Shown piece by piece: positions 5,792 to 43,543 of a stretch of 48,711 bases of DNA (position 1 is its first letter; each line of letters starts with the position of its first letter). The stretch covers positions 1-48,711 of the forward strand of contig JAFGCQ010000022.1 of the NCBI GenBank assembly GCA_016932555.1. Reading direction: 5' to 3'. Source of the stretch: Candidatus Zambryskiibacteriota bacterium. GTDB lineage: Bacteria; Patescibacteriota; Minisyncoccia; Phycocordibacterales; WO2-35-19. The position numbers and the translations under genes are program-made. The notes under the pieces were generated by a model. It had not been told where the DNA came from and searched no databases. It was given only the letters and a program-made list of their open reading frames with translations.

Positions 5792-6760
5792 CTAGAAAAA
5801 TGAGATTAAAGAAAATACAAATATAACATATAAAATAAATAAGAAAATGCCTTCCTTTTTGCTTATAGTATTATGAGTTTTGGAAAAAATAAGAAAGAAC
5901 AAAGCAGCAGCAATCATAAAGAAACGACTGACGACAAGAAATGATTCGCTTTCGATAACAATAGGATGGATTAAAGAAACTATCCCTAAAACCACAGTTG
6001 CTGGGATAACTATTGAACCTAAAAGATTGCCGAGAATCATAAAAGTTTCTCCTCTTCTAGCTGAAGTAATAGAAAAATAAACTTCAGGTAAAGCATTACC
6101 AAAACCTACAATAAGAAGACCGATGAGACTTATTGGTAATTTAAAACTGAAAGCAAAAAAAGAGGATGAACTTACTATACCCTTAGCAGCTATAAAAACT
6201 AAAATAATCCCCAGCAAAGCCTTAAGAGCATTTTTTACTGACTCTTTTAAAATATTTTTCCAAAGTCCTCGCTCATTTTCTTTATAGACTTTTGAAAATC
6301 TTTCTTTTTTAGAAAAAAGCCACCCTACATAAAAAACAAAAAAACAAATAAGGACCACGCCATCAATTCTAGATAAAACCCCATCAATTAAAAGCACTAC
6401 TGGCAAAATTGCTGTAAAAATAGCGAATATTGATGAATTTTTTATGGTTTGACTTTCGATTTGGATTTCTTTTTGAGGAGAAAAAATAATAGCAGCAGCA
6501 ACAGCTAAAGTTAAAGCAGTAAAATTATTACCAAAAATATCACCCAAAGAAAGCTGGGGTATTTCCGCTAACGCCGAAGTGATACCAACAAAAAGATTAG
6601 GTAAAGAAGCAGCAAAAGCCATAACAAAAAAAGCAACCACAAATTCTTTAAGACCTAAAAATCGAGAAAATCTAACCAAACTGCTAATAACTAACTCACC
6701 AGATAAATATAAAACTCCACAAGAAGCTGAAAATATAGCGACATTTATAAACCATTCCAT
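5792..6760 (-). CDS. Na+/Ca2+ antiporter (CaCA) family membrane protein
   Basis: Two alpha-repeat motifs (AASLPNLFVGITSAL, GFGNALPEVYFSITSARRGE). Confidence 0.85.
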   Translation of the reverse strand: MEWFINVAIFSASCGVLYLSGELVISSLVRFSRFLGLKEFVVAFFVMAFAASLPNLFVGITSALAEIPQLSLGDIFGNNFTALTLAVAAAIIFSPQKEIQIESQTIKNSSIFAIFTAILPVVLLIDGVLSRIDGVVLICFFVFYVGWLFSKKERFSKVYKENERGLWKNILKESVKNALKALLGIILVFIAAKGIVSSSSFFAFSFKLPISLIGLLIVGFGNALPEVYFSITSARRGETFMILGNLLGSIVIPATVVLGIVSLIHPIVIESESFLVVSRFFMIAAALFFLIFSKTHNTISKKEGIFLFILYVIFVFSLISFF

Positions 6761-35221: not shown

Positions 35222-35986
35222 ATGCGAGAAATGTTGGAAAAATACTTACAAAATATAGGTTTGACTGATAAAGAAGCTACTGTTTACTTATCTTTGGTCC
35301 AAGTAGACAACGCTTCGGTTCTTGATTTGTCAAAAAAGACCAAACTAAAAAGGCCAACTGTCTATGTGGTTTTGAATTCTTTGGCCAAAAAAGGTTTGGT
35401 TAGCGAAAACACCGTAGGCAAAAAAACCCATTATCAAGCCGAACCACCGGAAAGATTAGAAACTTTCGTAGAAAGGCAAAAACTTGTTTTAGACGAAAAC
35501 AGCAAGCGTCTAAAGGATATTATCCCCCAGATAAAAGGCCTTGAAAGAGGTTCTGGCGAACGACCCATTGTAAAATATTATGATGGAAAAGAAGGAATAG
35601 TTAGCGCTGTTAATGGTATTTTTGAAAATGACACAGAAACAGATGAGCCAATTTATCTTATATATCCAAGAGATTTGTTAGACAAACTCTTTCCGCCAGA
35701 AGAAAGAAATCAGTATAAAAACAAAAGACTCCAAAGAAAAGTAAAATCGAAAGTGCTTTACTCATATGAAAATGGCGAGATTCCATCAGACGATATGGGT
35801 GAAAGAATAAAAATCGATGGTAAAAAATATCCTATCACTTGTGATATAGCTATTTACAAAGACAGTGTTCGTATAAGTGTTTTGAACAAAAGATTTTCTA
35901 GTATTTATATAAAGAGTGACGATGTGGCTGAAACTTTACGAAGTCTGTTTAGGCTTATATTCGATAAACTGAAAGAAACTAAATAA
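35222..35986 (+). CDS. TrmB-family transcriptional regulator
   Basis: LQNIGLTDKEATVYLSLVQVDNASVLDLSKKTKLKRPTVYVVLNSLAKKGLV. Confidence 0.9.
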   Translation: MREMLEKYLQNIGLTDKEATVYLSLVQVDNASVLDLSKKTKLKRPTVYVVLNSLAKKGLVSENTVGKKTHYQAEPPERLETFVERQKLVLDENSKRLKDIIPQIKGLERGSGERPIVKYYDGKEGIVSAVNGIFENDTETDEPIYLIYPRDLLDKLFPPEERNQYKNKRLQRKVKSKVLYSYENGEIPSDDMGERIKIDGKKYPITCDIAIYKDSVRISVLNKRFSSIYIKSDDVAETLRSLFRLIFDKLKETK

Positions 35987-36582: not shown

Positions 36583-36626
36583 AATCTGTCATAATTACTT
36601 GACAGATTTTATATTATGAGTATAAT
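36583..36626 (+). promoter_or_regulatory. Promoter TTGACA-16-TATAAT with overlapping operator AATCTGTCA-N8-TGACAGATT
   Basis: -35 at 36599..36604, -10 at 36621..36626; 9-bp inverted repeat 36583..36608. Confidence 0.8.
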
Positions 36627-36647
36627 GTTGTCAGAACTTTGAAATAA

Positions 36648-36715
36648 GCTTCTGCTCCTACTCATGAGCCCCGCCCAGATTTTAACGCGAGGGCTCAAAA
36701 GCAGGGGCAGAAGCC
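36648..36715 (+). ncRNA. Structured 5' leader (nested long hairpin)
   Basis: GCTTCTGCTCCT pairs with AGGGGCAGAAGC (12 bp); inner GAGCCC/GGGCTC. Confidence 0.6.
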
Positions 36716-36721
36716 AAAAAA

Positions 36722-36847
36722 ATGAAGCAGTTGCTGGAAGCCTTGAAGGGTTCCAAGCTCTTGGCTGTCGGAGAAGACAGTGAAGGTCGAAAGATCTATC
36801 ACTACCTTCTGCCGGACGGCAAGGTCTTGGAAGTGATTCGAGCTTAG
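36722..36847 (+). CDS. Small hypothetical ORF (41 aa), absent from ORF track
   Basis: MKQLLEALKGSKLLAVGEDSEGRKIYHYLLPDGKVLEVIRA*; first ORF after promoter. Confidence 0.6.
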   Translation: MKQLLEALKGSKLLAVGEDSEGRKIYHYLLPDGKVLEVIRA

Positions 36848-36861
36848 GCTCGAGCCCTTCT

Positions 36862-37030
36862 GGGTGCGACAATCCTTGGCTAAGGCACCAAGGTTGCGAT
36901 AAAACCCTTTCGCGTAAAAGTATGGGCGACGGAGGACGCTTTTTCTCCTCCTGTCAAAGTTCTTAAACTCTTGAGAATTTTGACGGGAGAAATAGTTCTT
37001 CCAAAAGTTCTTTTAATTTAAATAAGGAGG
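36862..37030 (+). ncRNA. Structured inter-ORF RNA module, copy A
   Basis: Core GTTGCGATAAA..CGCGTAAAAGTATGGGC (36893..36927), hairpins GGAGGA/TCCTCC, TCAAA/TTTGA, GGGAGAA-ATAG-TTCTTCC, then GTTCTTTT box. Confidence 0.6.
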
Positions 37031-37034
37031 AGTT

Positions 37035-37226
37035 GTGGGCATAGTAAACGACGGTTTAGTTTGCAAAGATGAAGAAATTGCTGTTGTGATCCAAGTCAGG
37101 CAGGAAAGGTGTGATTTCTGTGGCCAAGTGGCCGAACTAAAACAACTTGCCAATGTAATGCTTTGCTCGGAAGACTATGAGCTTGCGGAAAAAGCGTGGC
37201 AGGAATGTTTTGGAAAACAAACCTAG
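37035..37226 (+). CDS. Small CxxC-containing protein (63 aa, GTG start)
   Basis: SD AAGGAGG 37024..37030; ...ERCDFCGQVAELKQLANVMLCSEDYELAEKAW. Confidence 0.6.
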   Translation: MGIVNDGLVCKDEEIAVVIQVRQERCDFCGQVAELKQLANVMLCSEDYELAEKAWQECFGKQT

Positions 37227-37336
37227 CTGTAACTTCGAGCAATATTGGGAGGAATATTGCTCACTCGAATGGGTTCGCGAAATAGTTCGTGGATCGATAG
37301 AGTTTTTGTTCTTTAACTTACTTATAGGGGGTACTA

Positions 37337-37540
37337 ATGAAAAATCAAACTGCTATTTTCGCTGGCTTGGTTATATTCATTCTTTTAGTGGCAAATGTTG
37401 GTGTGTTGGTTATTGTAGACAACACTCATCCCAACATTTCTTCTGGAGATTGGATAGCTATGGCAATAATATGTCTGGTCTTGGATGTGTTTGTATTTAC
37501 TACATCTATGCGCAGATATTTGTCGCTACCGCGGAGATAG
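37337..37540 (+). CDS. Small membrane protein (67 aa)
   Basis: SD AGGGGGT; two hydrophobic helices. Confidence 0.6.
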   Translation: MKNQTAIFAGLVIFILLVANVGVLVIVDNTHPNISSGDWIAMAIICLVLDVFVFTTSMRRYLSLPRR

Positions 37541-38322
37541 CTCTGGGATCGTCAATCTTTGTTCAAGGAAACAAAGTTGCGATAAAGTCCACTCGCGTAA
37601 AAGTATGGGCAGTGGAAGATTAGTACCTCTTTCCACCAAAGTTTTTGATGAGTCGAAAATTTTGGTGGGAGAAGAATGAGGTCATACCTGTGCTTGTAAG
37701 TAGGCGTCACGGACTAGCAACGATCCGATATCCTGCGGGACGGGGAGCAGTCAACCGCTGAAAGCAAGTGCAATCTGAACCTCATCCTTCTTCCTACTAT
37801 ATTGATCTTTAAAAATTTGCTGGGGCGCATCCGCGAGTATGCAACGTCCTTTCGTAAAAAGATGACCGAAACCAAGATATGGTAATGATTGAAACACATC
37901 TTGCATTTCAACAATGTCATCTTCAGCCGAAAGAGGGATTATTCCTAAAGATTGGAATTTTCAAAAATTTCAGCTAACTCGCAAATAATCAATCGCCGAA
38001 CGGAGGAGGAAAGACCGGTCCCTTCGAAAGGGAGCAATGTCTGACAAGATAAGTGCTTCTTCGGTGAAGCACTAGAGCTTGTTCCCAAGGGAGCATTCTT
38101 AGGGATAATCCCAACCGGTCGTGTCCTTTTATAGGGGGTGATGCCTCCCTAGGATCCTCGCCAAACATTTAGTGTTCACCTTGTGGATATGAAAATGTGA
38201 GTCGAGGAAGCACTTGATTTCGCAGATGCCTAGGCCTGACGAATCAAGCGTTGTTAAGGGTTCAATGTTAGAGGTTTGGACTGTTAGTAATTACTTTCAG
38301 TCCAGCCTCAAACCCTTCTGTC
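37541..38322 (+). ncRNA. Large ORF-free structured RNA, including module copy C, bounded 3' by the hammerhead cleavage site
   Basis: Many long helices, e.g. 37667..37682/37779..37794, 37935..37950/38098..38112, 38213..38219/38242..38248, 38278..38283/38298..38303. Confidence 0.6.
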
Positions 38323-38403
38323 TCGAGATGTGCTTGCCCCGTGTGGGGTAAAACCCCATTTACGGGGTATCTCGACTGATGAGTCCAAAAGGACGAAACA
38401 GAA
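38316..38403 (+). ncRNA. Type III hammerhead ribozyme
   Basis: UUCUG-UC | UCGAGA...UCUCGA-CUGAUGAG-UCC-AAAA-GGA-CGAAA-CAGAA; all core nucleotides present; predicted cleavage after C38322. Confidence 0.92.
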
Positions 38404-38436
38404 ACTGTTCTTTTAAATTTTATAGAGGAGAGAAAA

Positions 38437-38676
38437 ATGAGTGTATTTGTTGCTGTTTTTAAATCTAGAGACGAGTATGTTGTTCCGTATTCAGTTGTTT
38501 TCATGTCAAAAGAATTAACCACATCATATCTAACTAGTAATGGATTCGTAAAATTATCAGGTTGGCACGATGTTGAACAGTGGACAAAGAATGATGATGG
38601 TCGTGGTCCGACGAAAGTTGAGGTTTATGATGCTCCAATATTTGACAAGTGTGACGAATGGGTATGGAAAGAGTAG
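38437..38676 (+). CDS. Small hypothetical protein (79 aa)
   Basis: SD GAGGAG upstream, immediately after hammerhead. Confidence 0.6.
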   Translation: MSVFVAVFKSRDEYVVPYSVVFMSKELTTSYLTSNGFVKLSGWHDVEQWTKNDDGRGPTKVEVYDAPIFDKCDEWVWKE

Positions 38677-38680
38677 AAAT

Positions 38681-38795
38681 TTGGCCGAACACTGTTCGGC
38701 CTTTCATCAAAGTTTTTATCCGTTAACTGACGGATGAGGATTTTGATGGGAGAAATGGTTCTTCCAAATGTTCTTTTGAAAAAATTATAAAGGAG
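38681..38795 (+). ncRNA. Structured inter-ORF RNA module, copy D (3' half)
   Basis: GGCCGAAC/GTTCGGCC; ATCAAAG..TTTTGAT; GGGAGAA-ATGG-TTCTTCC; GTTCTTTT box; SD. Confidence 0.55.
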
Positions 38796-38800
38796 TTGTT

Positions 38801-39100
38801 ATGTTAAAGATAATGTTAGACCAAAGCTGTTTAGATGCAAATTGTATTTGGTATTATCCGGGATCAGAGTCAGAGCTTATAAGAGACTGGCAAAAAGGTC
38901 TGATTCCTTTCATTTCTAGACAACATCGGGGACTACTGAGTCTTCTTCCAGAACAATTCGTTGAGGTTTTTGATCGATTTACAGTATTATTCATCGAATC
39001 AGATCTCAAGGGGTTCATTCTCGAAGAGATGGATGACGGTGTTTCCTATCTCAAGATTAGAAACAAAACTTTTAGGTTTCCAAAAAGGAGAAGAAAATGA
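38801..39100 (+). CDS. Small hypothetical protein (99 aa)
   Basis: SD AAAGGAG; overlaps next ORF by 4 nt. Confidence 0.65.
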   Translation: MLKIMLDQSCLDANCIWYYPGSESELIRDWQKGLIPFISRQHRGLLSLLPEQFVEVFDRFTVLFIESDLKGFILEEMDDGVSYLKIRNKTFRFPKRRRK

Positions 39101-39360
39101 AAAAACTTAGTTTTATTGGTCTTTTAACGTTCGGAGTAGCATTTATATTTTTAATTGTTATTGCGGACATTTCTATGAACAGCAACACCCCAATCCCTGA
39201 CCATCTTCTTGGAATGATTATCGCTATTATGTCTTTTGGCTTATGGCTGATAACCAAGGGTGAGGCAGAACGGAAGAATTGGATAGGAGCCCTTTTTTAC
39301 TTCATCTTTTTTCTTCTATTTGCAACACTCGCTTCCATTGGTCTTTGGTTTGGATATTGA
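39097..39360 (+). CDS. Small membrane protein (87 aa)
   Basis: Three hydrophobic helices; translationally coupled ATGA overlap. Confidence 0.65.
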   Translation: MKKLSFIGLLTFGVAFIFLIVIADISMNSNTPIPDHLLGMIIAIMSFGLWLITKGEAERKNWIGALFYFIFFLLFATLASIGLWFGY

Positions 39361-39396
39361 CCGTCTCCCCTAGGAAAGGAGGCGGCTGTTTTTTTA
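39361..39396 (+). terminator. Operon terminator
   Basis: CCGTCTCC...GGAGGCGG followed by TTTTTTT. Confidence 0.75.
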
Positions 39397-39408
39397 TTTA
39401 AAACAAAA

Positions 39409-39438
39409 AGACCCAAGCGATTTTTGGTCGCAAGGGTC
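39409..39438 (-). terminator. Terminator of the XRE gene
   Basis: GACCCaaGCGA...TCGCaaGGGTC. Confidence 0.6.
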
Positions 39439-39476
39439 TATAATTGAAAAAGGTTCTTTTCTCCTCCCTATCTCTT

Positions 39477-39818
39477 CTACTGACGAACCATTCTGAGAAT
39501 TATATTAACCTCAGCTGATACGCCAGCTTTATCCAAAGCGCTAGAGACTACCTCTTTGATCTCATTTTCTAATTCCTCCTCCGGATATTTTTTGATTCCA
39601 AAGATCGAATTGAAAAAATCAAGCAAAGAGCATTCCAATCCCCGGCAAACATTCAAAAGGGTGCCCAGCTGAATTGGCGCGTTGGTCGTTTCGTACTGCA
39701 CCCATGCGGGTTTCGTTACTCCGATTTTATTCGCCATCGCTTGATGAGTTAAGCCAAAATAGAGCCGACGTTTTCTGATTTCCTTGGAAATTAAAGGTTT
39801 TAGTTCTTCAAGTGTCAT
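39477..39818 (-). CDS. XRE-family helix-turn-helix regulator
   Basis: RKRRLYFGLTHQAMANKIGVTKPAWVQYETTNAPIQLGTLLNVCRGL. Confidence 0.85.
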   Translation of the reverse strand: MTLEELKPLISKEIRKRRLYFGLTHQAMANKIGVTKPAWVQYETTNAPIQLGTLLNVCRGLECSLLDFFNSIFGIKKYPEEELENEIKEVVSSALDKAGVSAEVNIILRMVRQ

Positions 39819-39886
39819 AATCGTCTCCTTTTCAAAGATCTTCCTATGTTTTAAATGCTAAAACAAAGATTCTATAAGAATGACTT

Positions 39887-39946
39887 AAGTTATCATAAAT
39901 ATCGGCTTCTGTCAATGCTTGACAGAATGACATAATTTGCTATAAT
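39887..39946. promoter_or_regulatory. Divergent promoters sharing one palindrome TCTGTCAA-TGC-TTGACAGA
   Basis: +: TTGACA 39919..39924-16-TATAAT 39941..39946; -: TTGACA (39915..39910)-17-TAACTT (39892..39887). Confidence 0.75.
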
Positions 39947-39994
39947 ATAAGCGGTATCAATGTTCTTTTCATAAATATATGGAGGAAAGGTAAA

Positions 39995-40192
39995 ATGTAC
40001 AAGCGTACAGCAAAATTCAACCGATATAATCGACAAAGAATAGAATCTGCTAGCGGAACGGTTATGACGGAAAATGAGCGAAATCGACGCTTCCCTGAAA
40101 AATGGGTAGTTTGCCCGATATGTGGCAAGCCAGTGGAAGAAGCTTGGCTTTTGCCGATACACCTCAAAAGAGCCCATTCTTCCAATGATTAA
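39995..40192 (+). CDS. Small C2H2-like zinc-finger protein (65 aa)
   Basis: VVCPICGKPVEEAWLLPIHLKRAH; SD GGAGGAAAGG. Confidence 0.75.
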   Translation: MYKRTAKFNRYNRQRIESASGTVMTENERNRRFPEKWVVCPICGKPVEEAWLLPIHLKRAHSSND

Positions 40193-40245
40193 ACCCGCTC
40201 ATACCAACAACATCTCGTTGTCAGTATGAAGCGGGTTTGTTGTTT
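40193..40245 (+). terminator. Terminator
   Basis: AACCCGCTcATAC...GTATgaAGCGGGTTT. Confidence 0.75.
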
Positions 40246-42471: not shown

Positions 42472-42556
42472 TTCAAAATCGATGGATATGCAAATTTCTA
42501 TTTTTTGAAGGATCTTAAGTAATATTTTGCGATATATCATGTTGTAAAATGTTGCG

Positions 42557-42591
42557 ATGTTGTCTGATTTTGGAACAAATTTGGACAACAT
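42557..42591. repeat. Inverted repeat ATGTTGTC-N19-GACAACAT upstream of recombinase
   Basis: 8-bp perfect arms in intergenic DNA before the Xer-like gene. Confidence 0.5.
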
Positions 42592-42628
42592 TTATTGTGC
42601 GACATTAAAGGGTGGTATAATGAATTGA

Positions 42629-43543
42629 ATGGTGAAGGATTTGGAACAATTAAAAAGACAGTTTCTAGAATATGTTGAGATTGAAAAAGGCCGATCTTTG
42701 AAGACCGTTGAAAATTATAATCACTATTTAACAGTTTTTTTGGAGTACACTAAACTTAAGGACCCGGCTGAAATTACTGATAACGTAGTTAGAGAGTTTA
42801 GACTATGGCTCAATCGGCAACCAGTTGGACTTGGTAAACCAGGGACACTCAGCCGCAAGACTCAAAATTATTACCTCATCGCTATCCGCGCTTTCCTTAA
42901 ATATTTGACTAAACAGGAGATAAAAACCCTACCACCTGAAAGGATAGAGCTTGCCAAAATACCTGAAAGATCGCTTGATTTAATTACTGATACCGAACTA
43001 GAAAGGCTATTTGAAGCCCCTGATGGTGATGATGTAAAGGCCTTGCGTGATCGAGCGATATTACACCTCCTCTTCTCTACTGGCTTGCGCGTCTCTGAAC
43101 TTTGTTCCCTAGATAGAGACATCGATTTAAATGATGATGAGTATTCTATACGCGGCAAAGGCGGCAAAGTCAGAGTAGTTTTTTTCTCTGAAGAAGCCAA
43201 AAAAGCGGTAAATGATTACCTAGATAAGAGAAAAGACTTAGACGACTGCCTATTTGCCCAGATTTCCAGAAATATAAAACCTGGACAAAAAAGTTTGCGC
43301 ATGAGCTCACGCTCAATTGCCAGAATTATAAAATATTACGCTACTAAAGCCGGCATTTCCAAAAAAGTCACTCCCCATGTCATCCGCCACTGCTTTGCCA
43401 CCGACCTCCTCTCAAACGGCGCCGATTTACGCTCCGTGCAGACCCTTTTAGGTCACGCCAACATCGCTACCACTCAAGTTTACACCCATGTCACCGACAA
43501 GCATCTCCGTGACATCCACAAAAAATTCCATAACAAAAAATAA
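42629..43543 (+). CDS. Tyrosine recombinase (XerC/XerD-like)
   Basis: LFSTGLRVSELCSL, HVIRHCFATDLLSNGADLRSVQTLLGHANIATTQVYTHV. Confidence 0.95.
   Translation: MVKDLEQLKRQFLEYVEIEKGRSLKTVENYNHYLTVFLEYTKLKDPAEITDNVVREFRLWLNRQPVGLGKPGTLSRKTQNYYLIAIRAFLKYLTKQEIKTLPPERIELAKIPERSLDLITDTELERLFEAPDGDDVKALRDRAILHLLFSTGLRVSELCSLDRDIDLNDDEYSIRGKGGKVRVVFFSEEAKKAVNDYLDKRKDLDDCLFAQISRNIKPGQKSLRMSSRSIARIIKYYATKAGISKKVTPHVIRHCFATDLLSNGADLRSVQTLLGHANIATTQVYTHVTDKHLRDIHKKFHNKK

Follow-up and report, generated by a model that had tools for sequence, protein, structure and literature searches.

The question raised by this locus is why the same leader should precede one short ORF after another. In the window, by which we mean the whole stretch of 48,711 nt analysed here, a single contig of a 608 kb host genome that is 93% complete, four successive small ORFs had been noted to follow such a leader, and the original prediction read them as an array of individually controlled cistrons. 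We favor another reading, to which we assign a probability of about 55%, namely that the region yields one Nus-modified transcript that is cut at unit boundaries by a ribozyme or by hairpins, and that a boxA element reloads the Nus complex after each cut.

The repeated leader and its surroundings

A G-TTCTTT box does stand before each of the four ORFs (its G at 37007, 37308, 38407 and 38770; ORF starts at 37035, 37337, 38437 and 38801) with a spacing of 28, 29, 30 and 31 nt, and an SD follows the box in every case. The three hairpins with an AURG loop are likewise where they had been placed (36985-37002, 37276-37291 and 38748-38765); their core, GAAATRGTTC (GAA-AURG-UUC in the RNA), occurs exactly three times on the two strands of the 48.7 kb, each time just 5' of a box, with about 0.2 occurrences expected by a simple count. 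As to the further claim that the stems change while pairing is kept, the leaders at 36972 and 38735, to which the hairpins at 36985 and 38748 belong, are diverged duplicates (65 nt, 82% identical), so that the argument rests on the independent copy at 37276, with two compensatory pairs when set beside the other two.

Beyond these elements, there is a box at 36633, where it directly follows a perfect promoter, and there are others at 37803, at 39961 and, on the minus strand before an HTH gene, at 39841; a 41-aa ORF starts at 36722; a hammerhead ribozyme (38315-38404) replaces the hairpin before the third ORF; and there are a 78-nt repeat (36859, 37542), a long hairpin in three copies (36950, 37632, 38703) and, from box 37803 to the ribozyme, some 520 nt of RNA that folds strongly. 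The features, in order, are these.

35222-35986, plus: transcriptional regulator of the TrmB family, encoded by the island's first gene (Pfam TrmB, 1.2e-15)
36587-36626, plus: operator TGTCA-N8-TGACA over the -35 of promoter P1 (TTGACA-16-TATAAT, 36599-36626; 12/12)
36633-36646, plus: boxA 1 (AGAACTTTGAAATA), right after P1 (11.8 bits)
36648-36714, plus: leader hairpin before ORF0 (24-nt arms, 83% complementary; fold)
36722-36847, plus: ORF0, 41 aa, conserved (homologs in L077 and L144, ~56% identity, E ~5e-8, each upstream of hammerheads)
36859-36936, plus: D1 structured element, copy 1 (78-nt repeat)
36950-36987, plus: long leader hairpin E1 (GTCAAAGTT..AATTTTGAC; 14 bp, covarying with E2, E3 and the L132 and L077 copies)
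36985-37002, plus: AURG hairpin, boxB-like (GGGAGAA-AUAG-UUCUUCC; core count)
37006-37019, plus: boxA 2 (AGTTCTTTTAATTT; 13.7 bits)
37035-37226, plus: ORF1, 63 aa, CxxC zinc-finger-like (codon-usage p 0.002; no confident family)
37276-37291, plus: AURG hairpin, independent copy (CGCGAA-AUAG-UUCGUG; core count)
37307-37320, plus: boxA 3 (TGTTCTTTAACTTA; 12.7 bits)
37337-37540, plus: ORF2, 67 aa, hydrophobic (coding test; no confident family)
37542-37619, plus: D1 structured element, copy 2 (78-nt repeat)
37632-37669, plus: long leader hairpin E2 (repeat, fold, covariation)
to ~37795, plus: stem GGAGAAG..CTTCTTCC after E2, opened by a folded insert (fold)
37803-37816, plus: boxA 4 (TGATCTTTAAAAAT), no SD after it (14.1 bits)
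37817-38322, plus: strongly folded stretch up to the hammerhead cut, proposed as a noncoding unit (fold z; no Rfam family)
38315-38404, plus: type III hammerhead, predicted cut 38322/38323, ~35-nt hairpin in the stem I loop (67.8 bits, model R1)
38406-38419, plus: boxA 5 (TGTTCTTTTAAATT; 15.4 bits)
38437-38676, plus: ORF3, 79 aa, orphan (family searches)
38703-38750, plus: long leader hairpin E3 (fold, covariation)
38748-38765, plus: AURG hairpin (GGGAGAA-AUGG-UUCUUCC; core count)
38769-38782, plus: boxA 6 (TGTTCTTTTGAAAA; 12.7 bits)
38801-39100, plus: ORF4, 99 aa (coding test)
39097-39360, plus: ORF5, 87 aa, hydrophobic (coding test)
39361-39396, plus: intrinsic terminator of the P1 transcript, with stem CCGTCTCC..GGAGGCGG and a T run after it (read from the sequence)
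39477-39818, minus: Cro/CI-like HTH regulator (domain search)
39841, minus: boxA+SD leader of the HTH gene (AGATCTTTGAAAAGGAG; 15.7 bits)
39919-39946, plus: promoter P2 (TTGACA-16-TATAAT) over a TGTCA-N5-TGACA palindrome (12/12)
39961-39974, plus: boxA 7 (13.4 bits)
39995-40192, plus: ORF6, after P2 and boxA 7

The original prediction had named absence of the motif before small ORFs of other genomes as a point against itself; instead, the leader elements recur there, the long hairpin in L132 and L077 and box leaders in L132, L144, L077 and L096. Successive units in L144 (600-2640) are preceded by leader modules repeated three or four times, each with a GGGCAAAC..GTTTGCCC hairpin, TTTTCAATGGGATAG and then boxA. 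The repeated leader is thus real and recurs elsewhere, and it is the proposed separate control of each cistron that no longer appears to be the best reading, because the box matches boxA, the region has the look of a single transcript and the elements at unit boundaries resemble processing sites. That every ORF is controlled separately, for instance by suhB-like Nus-dependent translational repression, is no more than a possibility on our analysis.

The repeated box as boxA

Judged by its sequence, the repeated box matches boxA, the binding site of NusB/S10 (NusE) in rRNA leaders, and this is its predicted function. With a 14-nt matrix trained on hammerhead-linked boxes from other genomes and sites of at least 10 bits counted, the sense strand of 36620-40200 contains seven sites versus 0.42 expected (p=3e-7), and across eight islands there are 21 sense boxes versus one antisense. 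The 14-nt consensus of the hammerhead-linked boxes, TGTTCTTTGAAAA, fits the gamma-proteobacterial boxA, GYTCTTTAANA (PMC5725501), and the candidate NusB-S10 target in the RNA is GTTCTTTTAA. Similar sites are found 40-320 nt upstream of 16S genes in the order (TGTACTTTGAAATA, TGGACTTTGAAAAT, AGTTCGTTGACATA and others), with a combined p of 4e-9 for a set in which the host's own 16S leader was not recovered; plain boxA string searches left most of these 16S leaders without a match, and the sites emerged with the matrix. The host encodes NusB (PF01029, 121.6 bits). The succession of a hairpin and then boxA is moreover that of rrn leaders, in which the order is boxB-boxA-boxC and a second set precedes the 23S (PMC10250234). 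Many 16S leaders of the order also share a conserved TTTTGTTCCGTTC some 40-100 nt 5' of 16S (L034, L038, L041, L044, L053 and others), and 16S matches in L051-L055 span 2.3-2.9 kb, indicating insertions in these genes. Enlarged 16S spans in relatives, together with the size of the host genome, suggest that the host is a member of the CPR/Patescibacteria.

Could the box be something other than boxA, a U-rich element that acts by pairing with the SD or by enhancing initiation, which would make the leaders plain elements of translation? With G-U wobbles, UUCUUU is able to pair with AAGGAG, forming weak local hairpins, and the bare box+SD pattern, in degenerate form, is not above chance (8 matches versus 6.1 expected). 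Against this stand the boxes that have no SD, that adjoin ribozymes or that come right after P1, and the 14-nt consensus, which reaches beyond the U tract and matches the rrn leader sites; we therefore consider this explanation very improbable.

The main rival accepts boxA and holds that it chiefly controls translation of its own ORF, a Nus complex just upstream of the SD blocking ribosomes such that output tracks the supply of Nus factors. There is precedent in the boxA of the E. coli suhB mRNA leader, which represses translation (PMC5725501), and five of the seven sense boxes begin 18-21 nt before an SD, which fits the suhB-type placement of boxA shortly upstream of the SD; the divergent HTH gene carries a like box+SD leader. 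However, no SD follows the boxes at 36633 and 37803 or many of those in other islands, the position of boxes directly after hammerheads is left unexplained, and suhB repression leads to Rho termination, while the Rho RNA-binding domain (PF07497) was not found in the 93% complete host genome by a search that was positive in 9 of 14 control genomes. As the main account of the leaders we regard this as rather unlikely, even though such a role could hold alongside cutting and reloading for the boxes with an SD at this distance. With Rho not found in the genome, the classic anti-Rho role of boxA may not apply either, and the box, if it works, may act on folding or processivity instead; at E. coli rRNA, the Nus factors are credited mainly with RNA folding (PMC5725501).

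A hammerhead ribozyme coupled to the box

The core of the window's hammerhead directly precedes boxA 5 (by 7 nt), the box ahead of the third ORF. It is a complete type III hammerhead with a CUGAUGA / GAAA core, three stems, an NUH cut site and an open stem III, and model R1, built without the window copy, scores it at 67.8 bits (E=1.8e-17). Its score with Rfam RF00008, 22.6 bits versus a gathering score of 48.5, is low because a hairpin of ~35 nt is inserted in the stem I loop; the relative in L075 passes the Rfam cutoff (51.6 bits). Rfam hammerhead matches initially comprised six loci, one of them above the cutoff, and later nine more. A blastn search with the noncoding region matched 41 of the order's 297 genomes, nearly always at the stretch of hammerhead plus box, and 43 complete type III hammerheads were recovered in the order. 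Their covariation is strong, with 94.6% of cells paired and 149 double changes versus 43.5 in shuffles.

How regularly does the box follow? Within the order it does so at 26 of the 43 hammerheads, a figure inflated by the presence of the box in the blastn query. A fairer one comes from loci of the class picked by the ribozyme alone (L134 excluded; no strict box lies within 26 nt of the L132 hammerhead, 1501-1555), where the box follows in 6 of 22 (p=1.4e-6). Among further loci at the level of the phylum it follows in 3 of 23 (p=0.002 in the matrix test), and in viral contigs at 0 of 22 hammerheads (Fisher versus the order, 5e-7). The pairing of hammerhead and boxA hence recurs across the order and weakens with taxonomic distance: hammerheads are widespread in the phylum, and the partnership with boxA belongs mainly to this order and class. 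Two further loci are worth recording: in L086, small ORFs are separated by five hammerheads that share a strand and lie within 7 kb, and in L087 a twister-P1 ribozyme (6303-6369; 59.4 bits, just under the cutoff) lies between two hammerheads.

Promoter, operator and a shared layout

P1 is a perfect promoter (12/12) that overlaps the TGTCA-N8-TGACA operator downstream of the TrmB-family gene. Seven distinct hammerhead loci outside the window share this promoter arrangement (L077, L086, L090/L143, L096, L103, L132 and L144), and 374 kb of other loci contain none besides the window's own copy. Of the 68 hammerhead loci (498 kb), 19 have TrmB homologs, versus 1 of 78 others (283 kb), the window's copy being set aside; six of these homologs, at 48-61% identity, lie on the same strand 1-3 kb upstream. 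In L077, L086, L096, L103 and L132 the layout as a whole recurs: a TrmB-family gene precedes a promoter over TGTCA-N8-TGACA, and after it come leaders and short ORFs together with boxes, hammerheads and folded RNA. L144 has a like promoter and layout in a sequence that, as examined, starts at the promoter. In L077 and L144, the ORF0 homologs occupy the corresponding position. The near-palindromic operator is probably bound by the TrmB protein, which would make it the regulator of P1; the candidate targets are TGTCAAAAGTACTTGACA and the P1 and P2 operators of the window.

Folded RNA between the ORFs

The spaces between the ORFs fold far better than their shuffles (z -3.4 to -6.2, and -7.6 for 37541-38436), and the three ORF stretches that were tested do not. 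The long leader hairpin occurs twice in L132 and once in L077, which represent two other families, with four double changes among what are only six sequences. A degenerate pattern of this hairpin, TCAAAGTT..AATTTTGA, gave mostly noise over the class, little above a reversed control, and was convincing only in G381 (L132) and the window. The two copies of D1, 78 nt and 77% identical with an invariant TTGCGATAAA..TCGCGTAAAAGTATGGGC core, form a single pair for which no relatives were found; TCGCGTAAAAGTATGGGC has three exact matches in genome contigs and none in viral contigs, and since the contexts of the three are unrelated (a Mfd-type coding region, a position upstream of a NUDIX-like gene, and another) we attribute them to chance. 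No Rfam family, known riboswitches and cis-regulatory RNAs included, reached its gathering threshold anywhere in the region, and the noncoding unit 37817-38322 gave no sequence relatives.

A model for cutting and reloading

The following scenario would accommodate these observations. P1, a strong promoter probably under the control of TrmB, would drive a transcript of ~2.75 kb that carries short ORFs and long folded noncoding stretches and that, as far as we infer its extent, probably runs from P1 to the terminator at 39361-39396 (~36.63-39.39 kb) with six boxes, at 36633, 37006, 37307, 37803, 38406 and 38769. A Nus complex would load at the first boxA, such that RNA polymerase stays processive and the RNA folds correctly, as on rRNA. 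The transcript would then be cut at unit boundaries: the hammerhead would do so at 38322/38323, and RNase III might do so at the long hairpins. Since each cut detaches the preceding boxA from the chain still being made, the boxA right after each boundary would allow the complex to be reloaded for the next unit. The stretch from box 37803 to the cut at 38322 would be released as a noncoding RNA of ~500 nt, and P2 (39919) would drive a second short unit with the seventh box.

Computation supports the identity of boxA, the ribozyme, their order-wide coupling, the promoter and operator, and the recurring layout; from these we infer ribozyme activity, hairpin cleavage, Nus loading, reloading and the role of TrmB as regulator. 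The ribozyme is present at only one of the six boundaries of the transcript, and cleavage at the long hairpins is our guess.

The components of the model are familiar. With rRNA antitermination leaders (boxB-boxA-boxC, NusA/B/E/G) the island shares the succession of hairpin and boxA, which stands near the promoter and recurs ahead of later structured units, as well as long stretches of folded RNA and a box consensus that resembles the clade's rrn leaders; unlike them, it is not rRNA, it has six boxes on 2.75 kb, mostly before short ORFs, and a ribozyme lies beside one box. A suhB-type leader likewise has boxA shortly upstream of an SD in an mRNA, whereas the island has many copies per transcript, unrelated ORFs, some boxes without an SD and no Rho found in the genome. 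The lambda nut and HK022 put sites, EAR and the LoaP targets are processive antitermination RNAs, and they too are RNA elements of the kind that would modify RNA polymerase; the island differs in that no N-like or LoaP-like protein was recognised among the proteins scanned and in that its element is repeated before each unit.

Hammerhead clusters that possibly cut prophage transcripts (PMC3088659) and boxA in mRNA leaders (PMC5725501) are known already; their combination was not found in the literature searched, which was mostly open-access and without preprints and contained no paper linking hammerheads with CPR/Patescibacteria, nor natural hammerhead-boxA units. Should the model hold, Nus antitermination in these bacteria would extend past rRNA to accessory transcripts rich in folded RNA. 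Hammerheads, whose function in bacteria has been called unclear (PMC3088659), would have a steady partner in boxA, suggesting that their purpose is to cut a transcript while the polymerase is re-equipped; this would give bacterial hammerheads a testable role and point to a set of large unclassified structured RNAs. More tentatively, and at less than even odds, we propose that the islands form a class in small-genome bacteria: a promoter under TrmB control would give rise to a transcript with Nus modification, hammerheads or hairpins would separate its units, both coding and noncoding, a boxA just behind each cut would reload the Nus complex ("cut and reload"), and the main products would be long structured noncoding RNAs.

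Genomic setting and the question of a prophage

The island amounts to ~7.4 kb of extra DNA (~35.18-42.60 kb) between rpsO (S15) and xer, genes that in genus mates are ~60 bp (L031, L032), 0.44 kb (L030) or 0.76 kb (L028, L029) apart. Together with the CI-like repressor and a divergent promoter, such an insertion could indicate a prophage or its remnant, whose transcript is chopped by hammerheads and in which the box is incidental. Indeed, hammerhead clusters that border single genes or blocks of genes are known from prophages, where they likely process a long transcript (Perreault et al. 2011, PMC3088659), and the island resembles them in this placement. Yet genes for phage structure, replication or lysis are absent from the island (all its PHROGs matches are weak or of HTH type, and Pfam likewise yields no phage genes), and it has no DNA match to phage or plasmid records. 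The gene at 42629, which was considered as a mobile integrase and rejected, is the sole integrase-family gene nearby, a chromosomal Xer found in 277 of 297 genomes and not the IntI of an integron cassette array. The island further differs from the prophage clusters in its boxA directly after the ribozyme and in its TrmB-linked promoter, and viral hammerheads of like core are never found with the box. A prophage is thus distinctly unlikely in our view. ORF4, ORF7 and ORF1 have no relatives in viral contigs, and a defence system was likewise rejected, PADLOC matches being only weak or partial.

Several islands of other families have similar surroundings, with rpsO, NYN or xer genes close by (L095, L103 and L112; in part L083, L096 and L105). 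In the window itself, the stretch directly upstream of xer (42500-42650) also folds strongly, with a z of -7.2.
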